Part shown: piece after piece, positions 18,195-26,503 of the stretch
How the letters are laid out: each line of letters opens with the position of its first letter
How positions within the stretch are numbered: position 1 is the stretch's first letter
Assembly (NCBI GenBank): GCA_944367045.1
Contig: CALVWI010000007.1
Location: forward strand, 31,444-95,443
Origin: an uncultured Clostridia bacterium
GTDB lineage: Bacteria; Bacillota; Clostridia; Christensenellales; Borkfalkiaceae
Direction: 5' to 3'
Length of the DNA: 64,000 nucleotides
Program-made: the position numbers and the translations under genes
Notes under the pieces: generated by a model
Told to the model about the DNA's origin: nothing
Databases searched by the model: none
What the model saw: the letters and a program-made list of their open reading frames with translations, nothing else

Positions 18195-19049
18195 ATGACT
18201 TTTTGGGAAAAGATCGTAGACGGCGTCTCCGCGTTCTGGGAGGAATTCGTGAACAACACGGGCCTCACCATCATGCGGACGCTCGCCTTCCTCGTTCTCG
18301 GGCTCGTCGTCATCCGCATCGTGCAGATCATCGCCCGTTCCATCACGCTCAAGAGCCGCAAATTAGACCGCGCCGCGTCCTCCTTCGTGCTCTCCATCCT
18401 CTCGGTGGTGCTGTACATCGCGCTCGTCATCGTGGTCGTCAGCTCCTTGGGCTTCTCGACGGCCGGCATCATCGCGGCGTTCTCCGCCGTCGCCCTCGCC
18501 GTCGCCCTCGCCCTGAAGGACAGCCTCGGCAGCCTCGCAAACGGCGTCATCATCATCTTCACGAAGCCCTTCAAGAAGGGAGACAGCATCCAGATCAGCG
18601 GCTACACCGGCACCGTGCAGGAGATCCGCCTCTTCAACACCAAGATCTTGACCGCCGACAACGACACCGTCATCATCCCCAACAGCGAAGTGCTGGGGAG
18701 CGACCTCGTCAACTACAGCACCATGCCCATGCGCCGTATCGCGTTCGACTTCACCGCCGCCTACGGCGAGGACCCCGAGAAGGTCAAAAAGGTCGTTTTG
18801 GAGGGCGTGAAACGCATCCCCAACGTGCTGGAGACCCCCGCGCCCTCCTGCGTCATCACCGACTACGGCGACAGCGCCGTCGGCTACTCGGTGCGCCTGT
18901 GGACGCCCAACGAATTCTACTGGGACACTCACGCCGCCATGCGCGACACCGTCATCAAAGTCCTCAACGAGAACAACATCGAGATCCCCTACAACCGCCT
19001 CGAAGTCACGATGCGGCCCAATGCTTCCTACGGAGGTGACGAGAAATGA
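18195..19049 (+). CDS. mscS: Small-conductance mechanosensitive channel, MscS family
   Basis: A 284-residue channel that opens on membrane tension and releases solutes during osmotic downshock. Three N-terminal hydrophobic segments are followed by the pore-lining helix with the small-residue pattern ALAVALALKDSLGSLANGVIII. Next come the beta domain (FKKGDSIQISGYTGTVQEI, NSEVLGSDLVNYS) and an alpha/beta C-terminal domain, the full MscS architecture. The frame is open upstream, but ATG 18195 is chosen because AAGGAG lies 7 bp before it and the upstream codons overlap the promoter. The next gene overlaps by ATGA and is probably co-translated. Confidence 0.95.
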   Translation: MTFWEKIVDGVSAFWEEFVNNTGLTIMRTLAFLVLGLVVIRIVQIIARSITLKSRKLDRAASSFVLSILSVVLYIALVIVVVSSLGFSTAGIIAAFSAVALAVALALKDSLGSLANGVIIIFTKPFKKGDSIQISGYTGTVQEIRLFNTKILTADNDTVIIPNSEVLGSDLVNYSTMPMRRIAFDFTAAYGEDPEKVKKVVLEGVKRIPNVLETPAPSCVITDYGDSAVGYSVRLWTPNEFYWDTHAAMRDTVIKVLNENNIEIPYNRLEVTMRPNASYGGDEK

Positions 19050-19558
19050 GTACGTTTTTGCTTTTGACGGATACCGCCGAGACCGTCGCAGAGACCTCGG
19101 GCGGCAAGCTGCTCCTCGATTACCTCATCTACCTCGCCATCATCATCGTCGGCATCATCGTGCTGCTCCTCTTGAGGAAGGCGACGCAGCTCCCCTCGCA
19201 CACGGCAGTCAAGGAGCGCCTGACCGCCTTTGCAAAGGCCATCGCCGAGACCGAGCAGAGCGCGCCCGAGCGGCTCGTCGAACGCCTCAACCGCGTGGGC
19301 AAGCTCGTCTCCGAGTGCGACAAGCTCGTCTATGAGACGAGCGCCCTCGCCCGCAAGGAGCGCGACGGCGATATGGACAGCATCTGCACCCTCCTCGAGG
19401 AGGCGCGGAACGAGCTCTCCGCCTTCCGCGTCGGCGACGGCAACGAAGTGTGGCGGCTCACCGAGGCCCGCACCCGCGTCGAGAACGCCATCGGCACCCT
19501 CGACAATATCTTGGCGCGCGACAAGACGCTCAAGAAGAACAAGAAACAGCGCGCCTGA
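19046..19558 (+). CDS. Single-helix membrane protein with coiled-coil tail, unknown
   Basis: I do not recognise this 170-residue protein. A short N-terminal stretch leads into one strong transmembrane helix (about residues 25-43, YLIYLAIIIVGIIVLLLL). The remaining 125 residues are charged, helical and rich in E, R and A, suggesting a cytoplasmic coiled coil, and end in a basic tail (KKNKKQRA). Its ATG overlaps the mscS stop as ATGA, so the two are likely translated together. It could be an accessory subunit of the channel or an independent membrane-tethered helix; only the gene order supports the former. Confidence 0.7.
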   Translation: MSTFLLLTDTAETVAETSGGKLLLDYLIYLAIIIVGIIVLLLLRKATQLPSHTAVKERLTAFAKAIAETEQSAPERLVERLNRVGKLVSECDKLVYETSALARKERDGDMDSICTLLEEARNELSAFRVGDGNEVWRLTEARTRVENAIGTLDNILARDKTLKKNKKQRA

Positions 19559-19597
19559 AACGCGCACACCAGCGCGCCCCCGAACGGCGCATACCGA

Positions 19598-19630
19598 GAC
19601 GCTCCCGCTCCCAAGCGGGGGCGTTTTTTT
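19598..19630 (+). terminator. Terminator of mscS operon
   Basis: GACGCTCCCGCT pairs with AGCGGGGGCGTT (from 19598 and 19614) around CCCA, then seven T. Confidence 0.85.
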
Positions 19631-19693
19631 GTCATTTTCGGGGCCGCCGCGCCTCGCGCGCCCGCCGAAGCCCTTCTCCCGAAAATTACCCCC

Positions 19694-19722
19694 TTGAAAT
19701 TATCAAAGAACTGTGTTATAAT
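19694..19722 (+). promoter_or_regulatory. Promoter of HEPN-like/CBS gene
   Basis: TTGAAA (19694-19699), 17-bp spacer, TATAAT (19717-19722), 28 bp upstream of the ATG. Confidence 0.85.
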
Positions 19723-19750
19723 TCAGATATGAAGATACAGGGAGGAAATT

Positions 19751-20491
19751 ATGGACATCTCCAACGCATCGCGGTTCATCAACAGCTATAACCGCATCGA
19801 GGCGCAATTAAAGCTCGTCTACAACGCCAAGGCGACGCAGAACTTTACCGACCTCGTGAAGCGCTGCGCCGACCTCGACATCACCGTGCGCCGCTATGAG
19901 AACGAGCTCATCGACTACGGGAAACTCAGGAACGCCATCGTCCACCGCACGGACGGGGGCGCGGGCGAGACCGTCATCGCCGTCCCCTGCGACGAGGTCG
20001 TCCGCCAGATCGAGTTCATCGAAAAGCTTTTATGTCACCCGCCCCGCCTCATGGACGCCATCAAAGTGAAGAAGGTGACCTCCGTCTTTGCCGACAAGCC
20101 CATCATGTCCGCCGTCGAGACCTTCGCCGCCTACCGCCAGAAGACGCTGCTCGTCTACGACCACGGCACCATGATCGGCGCCGTCAATACCTACCTTCTC
20201 TACTCGAAAATTTTACAGGTGGCGGCATCGGGCAAGAGCGTCACCGACTATCTGAAGCAGACGCCCTGCCGCGAGCTCGTCGACGAGGAGGAGATGAAGC
20301 GCTACCTCATCATGAGCCAGGCGGCGACCGTGTTCGACGTGTTTGTCGCGTTTGAGGAGAAGAAGGACTTAACAGCCGTCATCGTGACGGAAAACGGCGT
20401 GTTCGGCGAGAAGGCGCTCTCCATCATCACCCCCTCCGACTTCCCCCGCATCAACAGGTACCTCGAGAACTACAATGCCAAGCCGTTTTAA
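19751..20491 (+). CDS. CBS-domain protein with HEPN-like N terminus
   Basis: The C-terminal 150 residues look like a pair of CBS modules, small nucleotide-sensing folds: DAIKVKKVTSVFADKPIMSAVETFAAYRQKT and the IMSQAATVFDVFVAFEE region with TAVIVTENG. The N-terminal 90 residues are all-helical and include YGKLRNAIVHRTDG; the R-N-A-I-V-H stretch matches the R-x4-H signature of HEPN proteins, many of which are RNases or nucleotidyltransferase partners. I infer a ligand-controlled HEPN protein, but the motif is short and could be coincidental. The 246-residue protein is cytosolic and monocistronic, with GGAGG before the ATG. The ncRNA candidate starts about 125 bp downstream from its own promoter. 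Confidence 0.7.
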   Translation: MDISNASRFINSYNRIEAQLKLVYNAKATQNFTDLVKRCADLDITVRRYENELIDYGKLRNAIVHRTDGGAGETVIAVPCDEVVRQIEFIEKLLCHPPRLMDAIKVKKVTSVFADKPIMSAVETFAAYRQKTLLVYDHGTMIGAVNTYLLYSKILQVAASGKSVTDYLKQTPCRELVDEEEMKRYLIMSQAATVFDVFVAFEEKKDLTAVIVTENGVFGEKALSIITPSDFPRINRYLENYNAKPF

Positions 20492-20583
20492 GGAAAAATG
20501 TGCAGCGCTTTCACAATTTGAACGGGAGAAAAACTTTTTCGAAAAAAAGTTGCAAAAAAGGGAAAATATTTTTCCCGAAACGC

Positions 20584-20611
20584 TTGACAAAATCAAAAAG
20601 CGTGCTATAAT
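20584..20611 (+). promoter_or_regulatory. Promoter of large ncRNA candidate
   Basis: TTGACA (20584-20589), 16-bp spacer, TATAAT (20606-20611) with an extended TGC before the -10. No start codon with a ribosome site follows, yet this is one of the best promoters in the window. Confidence 0.85.
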
Positions 20612-20617
20612 GAAGGC

Positions 20618-21378
20618 ACAACAAGGAAGTAACCGAAACGGCGAACCTTCTTAAAAGATTTTAAGAAAAGCCAAGTTTGACTTCCCGATCAAAAGGACAA
20701 TTTCTGAAAGGATAAATTGTTTGATTTAAGGAACGTAAGTTTTCTCTGTGGACGATCTTGAAATAAGGTCGAAACCGAGATCCTTAAAAAAGACAAGATA
20801 TGTAAGTAAGAGATGCCTCCCCCAAATCGGAAAGAAAAATTTTGGAACTGACTTAAAAGATGATAAGAAGTCATTCCTTCCACAGACGGTTTATTTCAAG
20901 CGCAGGAATAAAACGGGAAAGCGCCAAGGAAGTTACCGATTTGTTGGGGCGGATATCAAATTTATCGCTCGAAACCCTTCAAATCGCATTCAGAGGGAAC
21001 AAAGTCTTTGGAAAATCAGGAATTTTTCAAAAGGAAATTTTTGAAGGAACTTGATTTTGACCGAGGAACGGTTTCAGGAAAGAAAAATCGGAATTTTGGA
21101 AGCGGACAAGATGAAAACTTGGAAGCGGAAGAAAGGAAAGAGGAATTCGAGGCCTGAAAATTCAGAAACAACACGGAATGGATAGGAAGAAAAGAGCAAG
21201 AAGGTCGTAAAAAGGAAAGAAAAATTTTTCCGGATCGTGATTTTGACCGAATGAAAAAAGTAGGGAAAAGCCTGTAAGTTCGATCCATGAGAAATACTTT
21301 TCAGAATCAGCGATCGGATCCATAAATTTCATATTCGTCTACAAGCGGTGCATCATCCGATGCACCGCTTACTTTTTG
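20618..21378 (+). ncRNA. Candidate large structured non-coding RNA, about 760 nt
   Basis: A consensus promoter and a 12-bp intrinsic terminator bound about 760 nt with no credible reading frame. Composition changes abruptly from GC-rich to A/G-rich. Local hairpins are easy to find: 20648-20667 (9-bp arms), 20697-20720, 20754-20782 with an inner GGT-CGAA-ACC loop, 20844-20877 (10 bp, one bulge) and 21026-21045. CCGATC (20685-20690) can pair with GATCGG (21312-21317) to join the ends. Two motifs recur: AAGGAAGTWACCGA (20623, 20926) and TGATTTTGACCGA (21052, 21238). Size and style recall large bacterial RNAs such as ROOL or GOLLD, but I cannot assign a family from memory. Confidence 0.72.
21343..21378 (+). 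terminator. Terminator of large ncRNA candidate
   Basis: A perfect 12-bp stem (21343-21354 with 21359-21370, loop ATCC) is followed by ACTTTTTG. The opposite strand has no U-run, so it terminates plus-strand transcription only. Confidence 0.9.
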
Positions 21379-21446
21379 TGTTTTTGGGGTTGACGAGCGC
21401 TCCCCTCCCCCACCGAGGGACGCGGCGGGAAGATTTATAAGGGAAG

Positions 21447-21640
21447 GTTGAGACGGCGGCATGAACGGAAGCGGTTTCCCCTACCCGATACGCCGTTTCC
21501 TTTTGTGTTCTGGGCAGAGTTGAGACGGCGTTTTGGGGGCACCCCCCACCGAAGGGGAAGGAAACGGCCCCAGCCCCGATACGCCGTTTTCTTTTTAATT
21601 TAGGGGAGTTGAGACGGCATTTTGGGGCAACTCCTCCCCT
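21447..21640. repeat. Imperfect tandem intergenic repeats, about 72-91 bp period
   Basis: GTTGAGACGGC begins at 21447, 21519 and 21608, and CCCGATACGCCGTTT at 21484 and 21575, so an imperfect unit is repeated two to three times. Spacers between the anchors differ but stay GC-rich with runs of C or G. A minus-strand frame through the region (21353-21889) translates the repeats and has no ribosome site. Origin and function are unknown. Confidence 0.65.
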
Positions 21641-21710
21641 ATTGAGTGAGGGGGCATGAACACGGTCCGCCGAGAGGCGCTTCGAGGTGATCGGCCTCCC
21701 GCACATAGGA

Positions 21711-21755
21711 ATGCCGCCGCGCGGCCGTGTTCGGCCGCGCGGCGGCATATTTTTT
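21711..21755 (+). terminator. 17-bp perfect GC palindrome followed by T-run
   Basis: A 17-bp stem (21711-21727 with 21732-21748, loop TGTT) is followed by seven T. No plus-strand gene ends here, so it may end a transcript of the repeat region or block read-through into the protease gene. Confidence 0.7.
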
Positions 21756-21876
21756 TCCATTGCACGATCGATCATTTGCCCATCGCTCGGCAGAAGAATG
21801 TTCCTCTCCGCCCCATGTTCGCACAATTTTAACAAAAAACACATACGGCCGTAACGCTTCTTTACGATTTTTTGGG

Positions 21877-21882
21877 TATAAT
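21877..21882 (+). promoter_or_regulatory. -10 element upstream of HtrA-like gene
   Basis: TATAAT at 21877-21882 with no good -35 at 16-18 bp. It gives a leader of about 56 nt before ATG 21945. Confidence 0.5.
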
Positions 21883-21944
21883 TATACATGAAGAAAACGA
21901 GCGGGCGGTGCGGCGCACACCGCGCCCCCGCGGGAGGCTACCAT

Positions 21945-23420
21945 ATGAAACATGCAAAGACGGCCGCCATCGCAGCGACGGCGGGAATATTGGCGCTCGG
22001 GCTTGCGCTCACCGGCTGCTCGACGGGCGGCACGGTGGAGGCGGTCTACGTCACCTCCATCTCTCAGTCGACAGCCGAAGACGGCTCTTCTCAATATACG
22101 GTATTCTATTCGGACGGAACTTCAACGACCCTCTCGGGCGCAGGTACGTCCGCGGGAAGCGGCAATGTCGCGCGGGACGCCTACGAGGCATACCTCGAAG
22201 AGACGGGCGAGGACATCACCTACACCGAGTTCCTCAAGACCTTCCTCTCGGCGGACGACGACAGCAACGCACAGGCGGTCGCGGCGTGCCTCAACTCCAC
22301 CTTGAAAATTTACGCCGAGAGCGTCGTCACGCAGAGCTCCTTCAACCCCTTCTGGGGCACGACTTCCGTCTCCGACCTCGCCATCTCGACGGGCGCGGCA
22401 GTCATCTACCGCATCGACGAGGAGAGCGACACGGCGTATCTCGTCACCAACTATCACGTCGTGTATAACGAGGACGCCGACACGCAGAAGAACGGCGGCT
22501 ATATCGCCCGCGCGGTGTACGGCTACATCTACGGCAGCGAGGGCGCGCCCACGCCCGTGGACGAGAACGGCGACGGCCGTGCCGATACCGATTCGGACGG
22601 CTACACCAAGTACGACTACGGCGACAGCGCCGTTGCCTTCACCTATGTGGGCGGCTCGGTGGAGAACGACATCGCGGTCCTCAAGGGTTCGCTCTCCGCG
22701 CTCCGCGCACTCAACCCCGACGTCAAGGCGGTGACGCTCGCGGACGGCTACTACGTGGGCGAGACGGCCATCGCCATCGGCAACCCCGAGGACGGCGGCC
22801 TCAGTGTGACGCAGGGCATCATCAGCACCGAATACGAACAGATCCAGCTCGAGATGGGCGGCGTGGTCCGCTCCTACCGGTCGCTCCGCATCGATACGCC
22901 CCTCTATTCGGGCAACTCGGGCGGCGGGCTGTTCAACCTCGACGGCGAGCTCATCGGCATCACCAACGCGGGCAACAAGACGGATCAGAATATCAACTAC
23001 GCGGTGCCGCTCGACCTCGTGACGGGCGTTGCCGACAACATCCTCTACTACGCGAACGACGGCGACGATTCGACGAACGGCGCCTACCGCATCACCCTCG
23101 GCTTTTCGGTGACGGCGGACAGCTCCCGCTACGTCTATGACAGCGCGACGGGCTACGGGCACATCGAGGAAGTCGTGACGGCCTCCTCCGTCTCGGCGGG
23201 CACCATCGCGGGAAAGCTCGGACTTGCAGAAGGCGATCGCATCGATGCAATCGTCGTCAACGGCACCGAGTACGACGTTTCCCGCACCTTCCACATCTAC
23301 GATATCCTTCTCACCGTGCGCGCGGGCGACAGCATCCGCATCCGCTATGAGCGCGACGGCAGCCTGCAGATGACGGACAGTTACGCCGTCACCTCGGCCG
23401 ACCTCTCCCCTATCTCCTAA
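21945..23420 (+). CDS. HtrA/DegP-like trypsin-family serine protease lipoprotein
   Basis: A 491-residue surface protease. The N terminus MKHAKTAAIAATAGILALG ends in the lipobox LTGC, so it should be lipidated and membrane-tethered. The catalytic triad is visible: His in LVTNYHVVYNE, Asp in ENDIAVLKG and Ser in YSGNSGGGLFN. A PDZ-like domain follows (VSAGTIAGKLGLAEGDRIDAI). Between His and Asp is an acidic loop DENGDGRADTDSDG that looks like a calcium-binding repeat. I chose ATG 21945, not the in-frame ATG 57 bp earlier, because GGGAGG precedes it and the signal peptide starts there. A paralogue lies at 51914-53476. Role: probably envelope protein quality control. Confidence 0.9.
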   Translation: MKHAKTAAIAATAGILALGLALTGCSTGGTVEAVYVTSISQSTAEDGSSQYTVFYSDGTSTTLSGAGTSAGSGNVARDAYEAYLEETGEDITYTEFLKTFLSADDDSNAQAVAACLNSTLKIYAESVVTQSSFNPFWGTTSVSDLAISTGAAVIYRIDEESDTAYLVTNYHVVYNEDADTQKNGGYIARAVYGYIYGSEGAPTPVDENGDGRADTDSDGYTKYDYGDSAVAFTYVGGSVENDIAVLKGSLSALRALNPDVKAVTLADGYYVGETAIAIGNPEDGGLSVTQGIISTEYEQIQLEMGGVVRSYRSLRIDTPLYSGNSGGGLFNLDGELIGITNAGNKTDQNINYAVPLDLVTGVADNILYYANDGDDSTNGAYRITLGFSVTADSSRYVYDSATGYGHIEEVVTASSVSAGTIAGKLGLAEGDRIDAIVVNGTEYDVSRTFHIYDILLTVRAGDSIRIRYERDGSLQMTDSYAVTSADLSPIS

Positions 23421-26427: not shown

Positions 26428-26503
26428 TGGTGGAGATAACGAGACTCGAACTCGTGACCTATACGTTGCGAACGTATCGCGCTACCAACTGTGCTATATC
26501 CCC
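26428..26503 (-). tRNA. tRNA-Ala (anticodon CGC)
   Basis: A complete 76-nt cloverleaf on the minus strand with encoded CCA. The acceptor stem is GGGGATA/TATCTCC and contains the G3-U70 wobble that defines alanine identity. The anticodon stem ATACG/CGTAT encloses TTCGCAA, so the anticodon is CGC (codon GCG). The T arm has GTTCGAGTC. It has its own promoter at 26542-26569 and a terminator. Confidence 0.97.

Follow-up and report, generated by a model that had tools for sequence, protein, structure and literature searches.

We describe a large RNA gene in a 64,000-nucleotide stretch of DNA from an uncultured Clostridia bacterium (the window; positions are counted from its first letter). At 20584-21376, a promoter is followed by about 750 nt of purine-rich non-coding sequence and a 12-bp terminator, and the gene upstream encodes a protein with a CBS pair and a HEPN-like N-terminal domain. 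It is well supported that this RNA is a member of a real, uncatalogued family of large folded non-coding RNAs (ncRNAs) in gut bacteria: homologues, covarying base pairs, the absence of a conserved frame and the lack of an Rfam match all sustain the first-pass annotation, which had proposed a large structured ncRNA, possibly of a new class. New relative to that annotation is the linkage to the upstream CBS/HEPN-like gene; in the genus, RNA and protein come and go together. We tentatively propose, giving it a little less than an even chance, that the RNA works as dedicated partner to a CBS-pair/HEPN-like ribonuclease (RNase) that senses nucleotides and is encoded by that gene. The locus comprises the following features.

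19751 to 20491, + strand: gene for a 246-aa protein with a HEPN-like N-terminal domain and a CBS pair, the candidate protein partner (Pfam, fold model, co-occurrence).
20584 to 20611, + strand: promoter, with TTGACA at 20584-20589, a 16-bp spacer, TATAAT at 20606-20611 and a TG ahead of the -10 box (extended -10).
20612 to 21370, + strand: ncRNA, assigned from promoter, terminator, homologues, covariation and the lack of a conserved frame, with a predicted start near 20618.
20615 to 20634, + strand: conserved 5' start GGCACAACAAGGAAGTAACC, in which several columns are invariant among the 24 full-length RNAs of alignment A2.
21204 to 21313, + strand: conserved 3' domain, matched by its covariance model R1.
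21343 to 21376, + strand: intrinsic terminator, a 12-bp stem at 21343-21370 (12 pairs, 7 of them G-C) and the T-rich tail ACTTTTTGTG.

Both ends of the transcription unit proposed in the first pass are borne out. The TTGACA-16-TATAAT promoter with its extended -10 agrees with the sigma-70 consensus at 12 of 12 positions; three promoter-like sites were found in 19000-23000, compared with 1.2 expected. The spacer measures 16 bp in all 34 RNAs measured, and near-consensus boxes recur across the family, with TTGACA in 65 of 66 loci and TATAAT in 59 of 66, counts obtained with a search pattern that demanded TTGAC and one of four -10 forms. As for the 12-bp terminator with its U-run, a scan for terminator-like sites proves little by itself, because it returned nine sites against 6.4 expected. 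The relatives carry a hairpin and T-rich tail at the same place, and the stem pair 21351-21362 covaries (E 0.017 in a full-length alignment of 27 RNAs). Judged from its strong promoter, the locus probably makes an abundant structured ncRNA of about 750 nt.

A blastn search of 61 genomes gave matches in 12, among them the window's own, and besides the window two full-length relatives, with 92% and 78% identity. Most of the short matches cover either the 5' end or the 3' domain; when the sequence was followed beyond them, complete RNAs with the same promoter and a terminator came to light. The exception is locus L012, which shares just the promoter and start with the family. Members have the promoter, 5' start, 3' domain and terminator in common and range from 576 to 925 nt between the -10 box and the end of the terminator stem (34 measured). 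Model R1 scores the window's domain at 99 bits (E 1.1e-16, 571,930 bases searched), a score to be read knowing that the window copy was among the sequences used to build it. Within the genus, R1 has a match in 28 of 103 genomes, of which 27 are counted; G086, with a weak partial match (E 0.008), was left out. It matches seven of 396 genomes of the order, spread over three genera, and eight of 14 genomes in one of those genera, while in the class the one match among 391 genomes is the window's own. Divergent members may be missed in these counts, because the many-genome searches use stricter filters. The family occurs in Candidatus Gallimonas, Borkfalkia, Protoclostridium and relatives. One genome, G068, carries on its contig 9 (L025) a second, diverged RNA copy with its own promoter and terminator and no HEPN-CBS gene adjoining.

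The window RNA folds more stably than its dinucleotide shuffles (z -5.1), and z ranges from -1.7 to -7.1 in ten relatives. The following helices are proposed, all on the + strand.

20745 to 20752, + strand: 5' arm of the long-range helix P1, UCUGUGGA, pairing with 20879-20886.
20879 to 20886, + strand: 3' arm of P1, UCCACAGA, pairing with 20745-20752.
20753 to 20771, + strand: hairpin P2 (20753-20760 with 20764-20771), its arms listed for each RNA.
20890 to 20912, + strand: hairpin P3, read from the sequence and alignment A2, with loop AAGCGCA (GCGUACG in most relatives).
21205 to 21208, + strand: 5' arm of P8, which closes the 3' domain, pairing with 21310-21313.
21310 to 21313, + strand: 3' arm of P8, pairing with 21205-21208.
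21214 to 21219, + strand: 5' arm of P5, pairing with 21297-21302.
21297 to 21302, + strand: 3' arm of P5, pairing with 21214-21219.
21232 to 21237, + strand: 5' arm of P6, pairing with 21281-21286.
21281 to 21286, + strand: 3' arm of P6, pairing with 21232-21237.
21242 to 21269, + strand: region of helix P7.

In alignment A5, which holds 67 sequences of the 3' domain, 95.3% of cells pair, and 160 cells are changed on both sides, compared with 48.6 in shuffles and at most 44 when the partners are slid. Because A5 had been fitted to the structure in the model, it is biased in favour of that structure; covariation was therefore scored against a tree-aware null, for which 200 alignments were simulated along the maximum-likelihood tree. 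On this null E is 1 or better for six pairs, four in proposed helices (E <0.005, 0.01, 0.05 and 0.06) and two in P8, which lies outside the R1 structure (21205-21313, E 0.005; 21208-21310, E 0.08). The P6 pair 21233-21285 is GC in 39, AU in 26 and GU in two of the 67 sequences and was matched by none of the 200 simulations; the P5 pair 21214-21302 is GC in 49 and AU in 18 of 67 (E 0.05). P7 contributes 21244-21267 (E 0.01) and 21245-21266 (E 0.06) over the 67 sequences and is partly unpaired in the window's own subclade, where 21245 is G and 21266 is A. The other 14 of the 18 model pairs are not significant on this null, several because they are invariant. Free of any assumed structure, a test on a MAFFT alignment of the 27 full-length RNAs with the tree-aware null left only two pairs at E 0.5 or better: the terminator pair (E 0.017) and 21174-21237, which has E 0.1 and lies outside every proposed helix. 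The first pass had suggested a search for homologues with covarying helices, and these were found in the 3' domain.

Elsewhere in the molecule the helices are less firmly placed. The arms of P1 could be located in 31 of 34 RNAs, for example as UCUGCGGG with CCCGCAGA; they start 92 to 134 nt apart and pair fully in seven arm combinations. They are 96.0% paired, compared with 86.6% when arms are exchanged (0 of 10,000), pair counts that involve arms picked for complementarity. P1 rests on these counts, because its best pair, 20749-20882, the top of its region, reaches only E 1.0 on the tree-aware null; several relatives, including L198 and L202, show no matching 5' arm. P2 is supportive only, because it was chosen as the best local hairpin. 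In L195, L196, L197, L199, L216 and others, P1 has as its 3' arm the perfect palindrome UCUGCAGA, a sequence that could let two RNA molecules pair.

Two further elements seen in the first pass do not characterise the family. The pairing of CCGATC (20685) with GATCGG (21312), offered as a helix closing the molecule, does exist in the window, but a relative has CCGACA, and 21312-21313 belong to the covarying helix 21205-21208/21310-21313; it was rejected as a family feature. The two motifs reported to occur twice are real (20623 and 20926; 21052 and 21238), and repeated 12-mers number seven in the window RNA against 0.23 in shuffles (0 of 300). One copy of each is absent from the 92% relative, so the repetition is not a family feature. 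The RNA of Protoclostridium gallicola (L056) holds CAGGAGTGTAATCGAATG three times, about 100 nt apart, and that of L088 holds the related CAGGAGTGAAATCGAATG.

The claim that these roughly 760 nt contain no credible reading frame also stood, and a conserved protein frame among the relatives was looked for and excluded. A 98-aa open reading frame (ORF) with a GTG start lies inside the RNA, and its 92%-identical relative L170 has an in-frame stop there and a protein identity of just 70%. Pairwise among seven related RNAs, indel lengths modulo 3 (0/1/2) number 78/254/104, and in ten pairs of related RNAs substitutions fall about evenly across the three codon positions. That the locus might be protein-coding, a degraded gene or a sequence artefact draws something from the longest ORFs, which exceed those of mononucleotide shuffles (mean 79 against 55 aa) and reach 185 aa in L227. 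The 185-aa frame, however, is not kept in relatives, and with indels that ignore codons, even substitutions, unconserved ORFs and covarying base pairs we rejected a protein-coding frame and regard this explanation as almost certainly wrong.

No known RNA family accounts for the transcript. At gathering score, Rfam 15 found two tRNAs in the whole window and nothing else; on 20500-21450, matches up to E 10 were all sub-threshold; and 15 further loci, 11 of them with the RNA, gave none at gathering score except ribosomal RNA in L198. The models for ROOL, GOLLD and OLE, which the first pass had singled out, were among those run, and since no Rfam 15 family matches, the RNA is not one of these three; membership in a known family was rejected. 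It resembles them in size class, in a stable and elaborate fold and in having its own transcript, here a predicted one. It differs in its setting, which is the chromosome next to a CBS/HEPN-like gene, and no relative turned up in phage or plasmid records. ROOL and GOLLD, by contrast, are reported from phages and prophages in the vicinity of tRNA islands (PMC12286853, as far as its text was accessible); here no such setting was found, and the nearest tRNA in the window is at 26428.

Two smaller RNAs invite comparison. Like the abiF motif (RF03085), or RCd22, the present RNA neighbours a gene for a HEPN-related protein and has a promoter and a terminator to itself. RCd22, however, has about 100-132 nt and is upstream of and co-transcribed with abiF (accessible part of PMC12373285), whereas the present RNA has 576-925 nt and is downstream; the RF03085 model had no match in the window or, up to E 10, on 20500-21450, and the Abi_2/AbiF Pfam family did not match the neighbouring protein up to E 0.1. 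The raiA motif RNA, or ModT, is likewise an abundant structured Bacillota ncRNA with a cellular role, but it is much smaller, with a probing profile covering residues 19-210 (accessible part of PMC11706538), and had no Rfam match here. A survey of RNAs in the human microbiome lists, in the part available, candidates of 27-219 bp only (PMC8040213). In a literature search that covered few subscription journals and bioRxiv preprints, neither this RNA nor a pairing of a HEPN-CBS gene with an RNA was seen to be reported.

The clue to function comes from the gene upstream. In every one of the 27 genomes of the genus that carry the RNA, the gene directly upstream on the same strand is a homologue of 19751-20491. 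The protein has a match in 44 of the 103 genomes; 27 hold its clade-A form (67-100% identity), precisely the 27 in which the RNA occurs. The remaining 17 have distant paralogues only. In the 13 paralogue 3' flanks that were read (one of just 124 nt) the RNA was not seen. At L240, downstream of 4717, a promoter of the same type follows a more distant HEPN-CBS gene (43% identity) after 63 nt, and R1 has no match there; judged from the sequence, it may carry a further divergent RNA and so be a possible exception among the distant paralogues. In several genomes, such as G015, G004, G013, G017 and G075, distant HEPN-CBS paralogues of about 37% identity lie some 5 kb from the RNA-linked gene, as at L049 11795-12499.

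The association extends beyond the genus. All seven RNA-positive genomes among the 396 of the order have the protein. A protein-alignment scan of named genomes (Candidatus Gallimonas, Borkfalkia, Protoclostridium and other Clostridia) found 89 relatives, of which 80 loci were kept; at 55% identity or more, taken as clade A, 64 of 71 loci have an R1 match downstream, and two more were recognised by eye, L220 (promoter and 5' end, after which the contig stops) and L236 (diverged, E 0.083). From gene stop to -35 box the distance is 38-260 nt, with a median of 78 (66 loci). The genes around the pair vary by clade, from MscS in the window to spoIIGA with a sigma factor, a pyruvate formate-lyase-like gene, saccharopine dehydrogenase and GH3, one representative of each having been identified by Pfam. 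At least four gains or losses of the pair, two of them forced by starred branches, are needed on a tree of rpoB from 70 genomes; this quick tree had matches from 77 of the 103 genomes, with seven partial ones left out, and includes 19 of the 27 RNA-bearing genomes. Because both partners are gained or lost together and the pair persists beside different genes, a functional pair is favoured.

The protein is best understood at its CBS end. Pfam CBS matches the window protein at E 0.002, below the curated cut-off, and the CBS profile is present in all 58 aligned relatives; a PDB profile search also finds CBS (E 1.2e-9). The model of the whole protein (predicted local distance difference test, pLDDT, 89.4) shows a CBS-pair fold, with fold matches at about E 5e-6 to CBS pairs, and some of the matched structures were solved with AMP, ADP or Ap4A. 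At the other end, the motif RNAIVH (R60 to H65) is invariant in the 58 aligned proteins and has what we take to be the RxxxxH form typical of HEPN RNases. The N-terminal domain modelled separately has a pLDDT of 83.2, and its fold search lists the sacsin HEPN domain at E 9.7 (TMq 0.49). The assignment of this domain to HEPN is weak.

Several published systems join such parts. It has been proposed that HEPN-CBS fusions respond to nucleotides by regulating the stability of RNA (PMC3710099), and the CBS-HEPN protein DS-11 defends against phage, an activity that depends on the catalytic residues of its HEPN domain and on a tyrosine of its CBS part (PMC13092281); the accessible parts of these two papers report no RNA partner for HEPN-CBS proteins. 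The present protein is like DS-11 in uniting HEPN and CBS, and each is proposed to be an RNase controlled by nucleotides; DS-11, however, is described as a one-protein system (accessible part of PMC13092281), and the DS11_antiphage family had no match to the window protein. RCd22 neutralises AbiF, a protein with links to Cas13, by direct binding (accessible part of PMC12373285). From these precedents, HEPN-CBS, DS-11 and AbiF/RCd22, we infer that the RNA may be a regulatory or scaffold subunit of the CBS/HEPN-like protein. The CBS pair would read an adenine nucleotide, the RNA would bind the protein and hold or steer its RNase domain, and an altered nucleotide pool or another trigger would change what the enzyme cuts; the binding itself, the RNase activity, the sensing of nucleotides and the direction in which regulation runs are each predicted. 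A more ambitious form of this proposal is doubtful: a new ribonucleoprotein switch in which a HEPN-type nuclease, under the control of adenine nucleotides via its CBS pair, has a very large structured RNA as an obligate subunit that regulates or guides it. If the partnership is real, little-studied gut Clostridia would possess a single system that joins nucleotide sensing by CBS, a HEPN-like RNase and a large RNA. What ROOL, GOLLD and other large bacterial RNAs do is described as poorly understood (PMC12286853, accessible part). Here the linked candidate partner has predictable biochemistry, so the function of such an RNA becomes directly testable.

A number of observations weigh against a dedicated RNA-RNase partnership. 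Pfam HEPN_RiboL-PSP scores the window protein at 19 bits (E 0.0014) against a cut-off of 28.4 and reaches E 0.01 or better in just 10 of 58 relatives, at best 3.5e-4; the N-terminal model had no match at E 0.001 in the PDB fold search, and the window protein had none in the PADLOC or NCBIfam families. Five of the 71 clade-A genes (L206, L208, L218, L230 and L237) have no RNA downstream, the second RNA copy of G068 has no gene beside it, and adjoining genes can vanish together in one deletion. The unpaired genes and the solitary RNA copy would be expected if RNA and gene were neighbours by shared ancestry alone, with no interaction. We consider such hitch-hiking improbable, as the pair persists in several different gene neighbourhoods and, within the genus, RNA and protein occur in exactly the same genomes.

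The RNA might instead be an independent scaffold, an RNA-only homo-oligomer like ROOL, GOLLD or OLE that the neighbouring protein merely processes or turns over. Its similar size and stable fold fit this, as does its conserved 3' region with a variable 5' part, an arrangement described for GOLLD (accessible part of PMC12286853), and the self-complementary UCUGCAGA in the P1 3' arm of many members could pair between molecules. What sits poorly with it is that the RNA is tightly linked to one protein clade and is gained and lost together with it, unlike ROOL, which has no known protein partner (accessible part of PMC12286853). Moreover, no relative was found in viral contigs by protein alignment of the neighbour gene or of the RNA in phage or plasmid records by blastn; we hold this explanation to be rather unlikely. 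An RNA-guarded defence or toxin-antitoxin system, in which the RNA would neutralise a HEPN-type toxin until infection or stress, is also unlikely in our judgement. The phage protection by DS-11, the direct neutralisation of AbiF by RCd22 and the patchy distribution in the genus (27 of 103 genomes) speak for it. Yet the identified neighbours are ordinary chromosomal genes, and of four proteins tested with PADLOC three had no match and the fourth a chance-level match to Cas11a. DS11_antiphage matches only a distant paralogue, L247, and weakly (E 4.6e-4, 19.4 bits against a cut-off of 260), and RCd22 is upstream and several times smaller than the present RNA, which is downstream with its own promoter. 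Since the genes around the pair are ordinary chromosomal ones and no viral, phage or plasmid relative was found, a role that is purely mobile or defensive is less likely, and we continue to prefer, tentatively, the partnership of RNA and CBS/HEPN-like RNase.

A second, different transcript family was observed in the same genus, in L012 from about 1503 (+ strand), L023, L092, L095 and L096. Compared with Rfam, it gave no match at gathering score, only chance-level ones at E 0.5. It has the same promoter type and start (GGYACAAAA), is about 370-640 nt long, contains several units of a Shine-Dalgarno sequence and a mini-ORF, and ends in a hairpin like CCCCCGTGCGGTTGCGCGGGGG.
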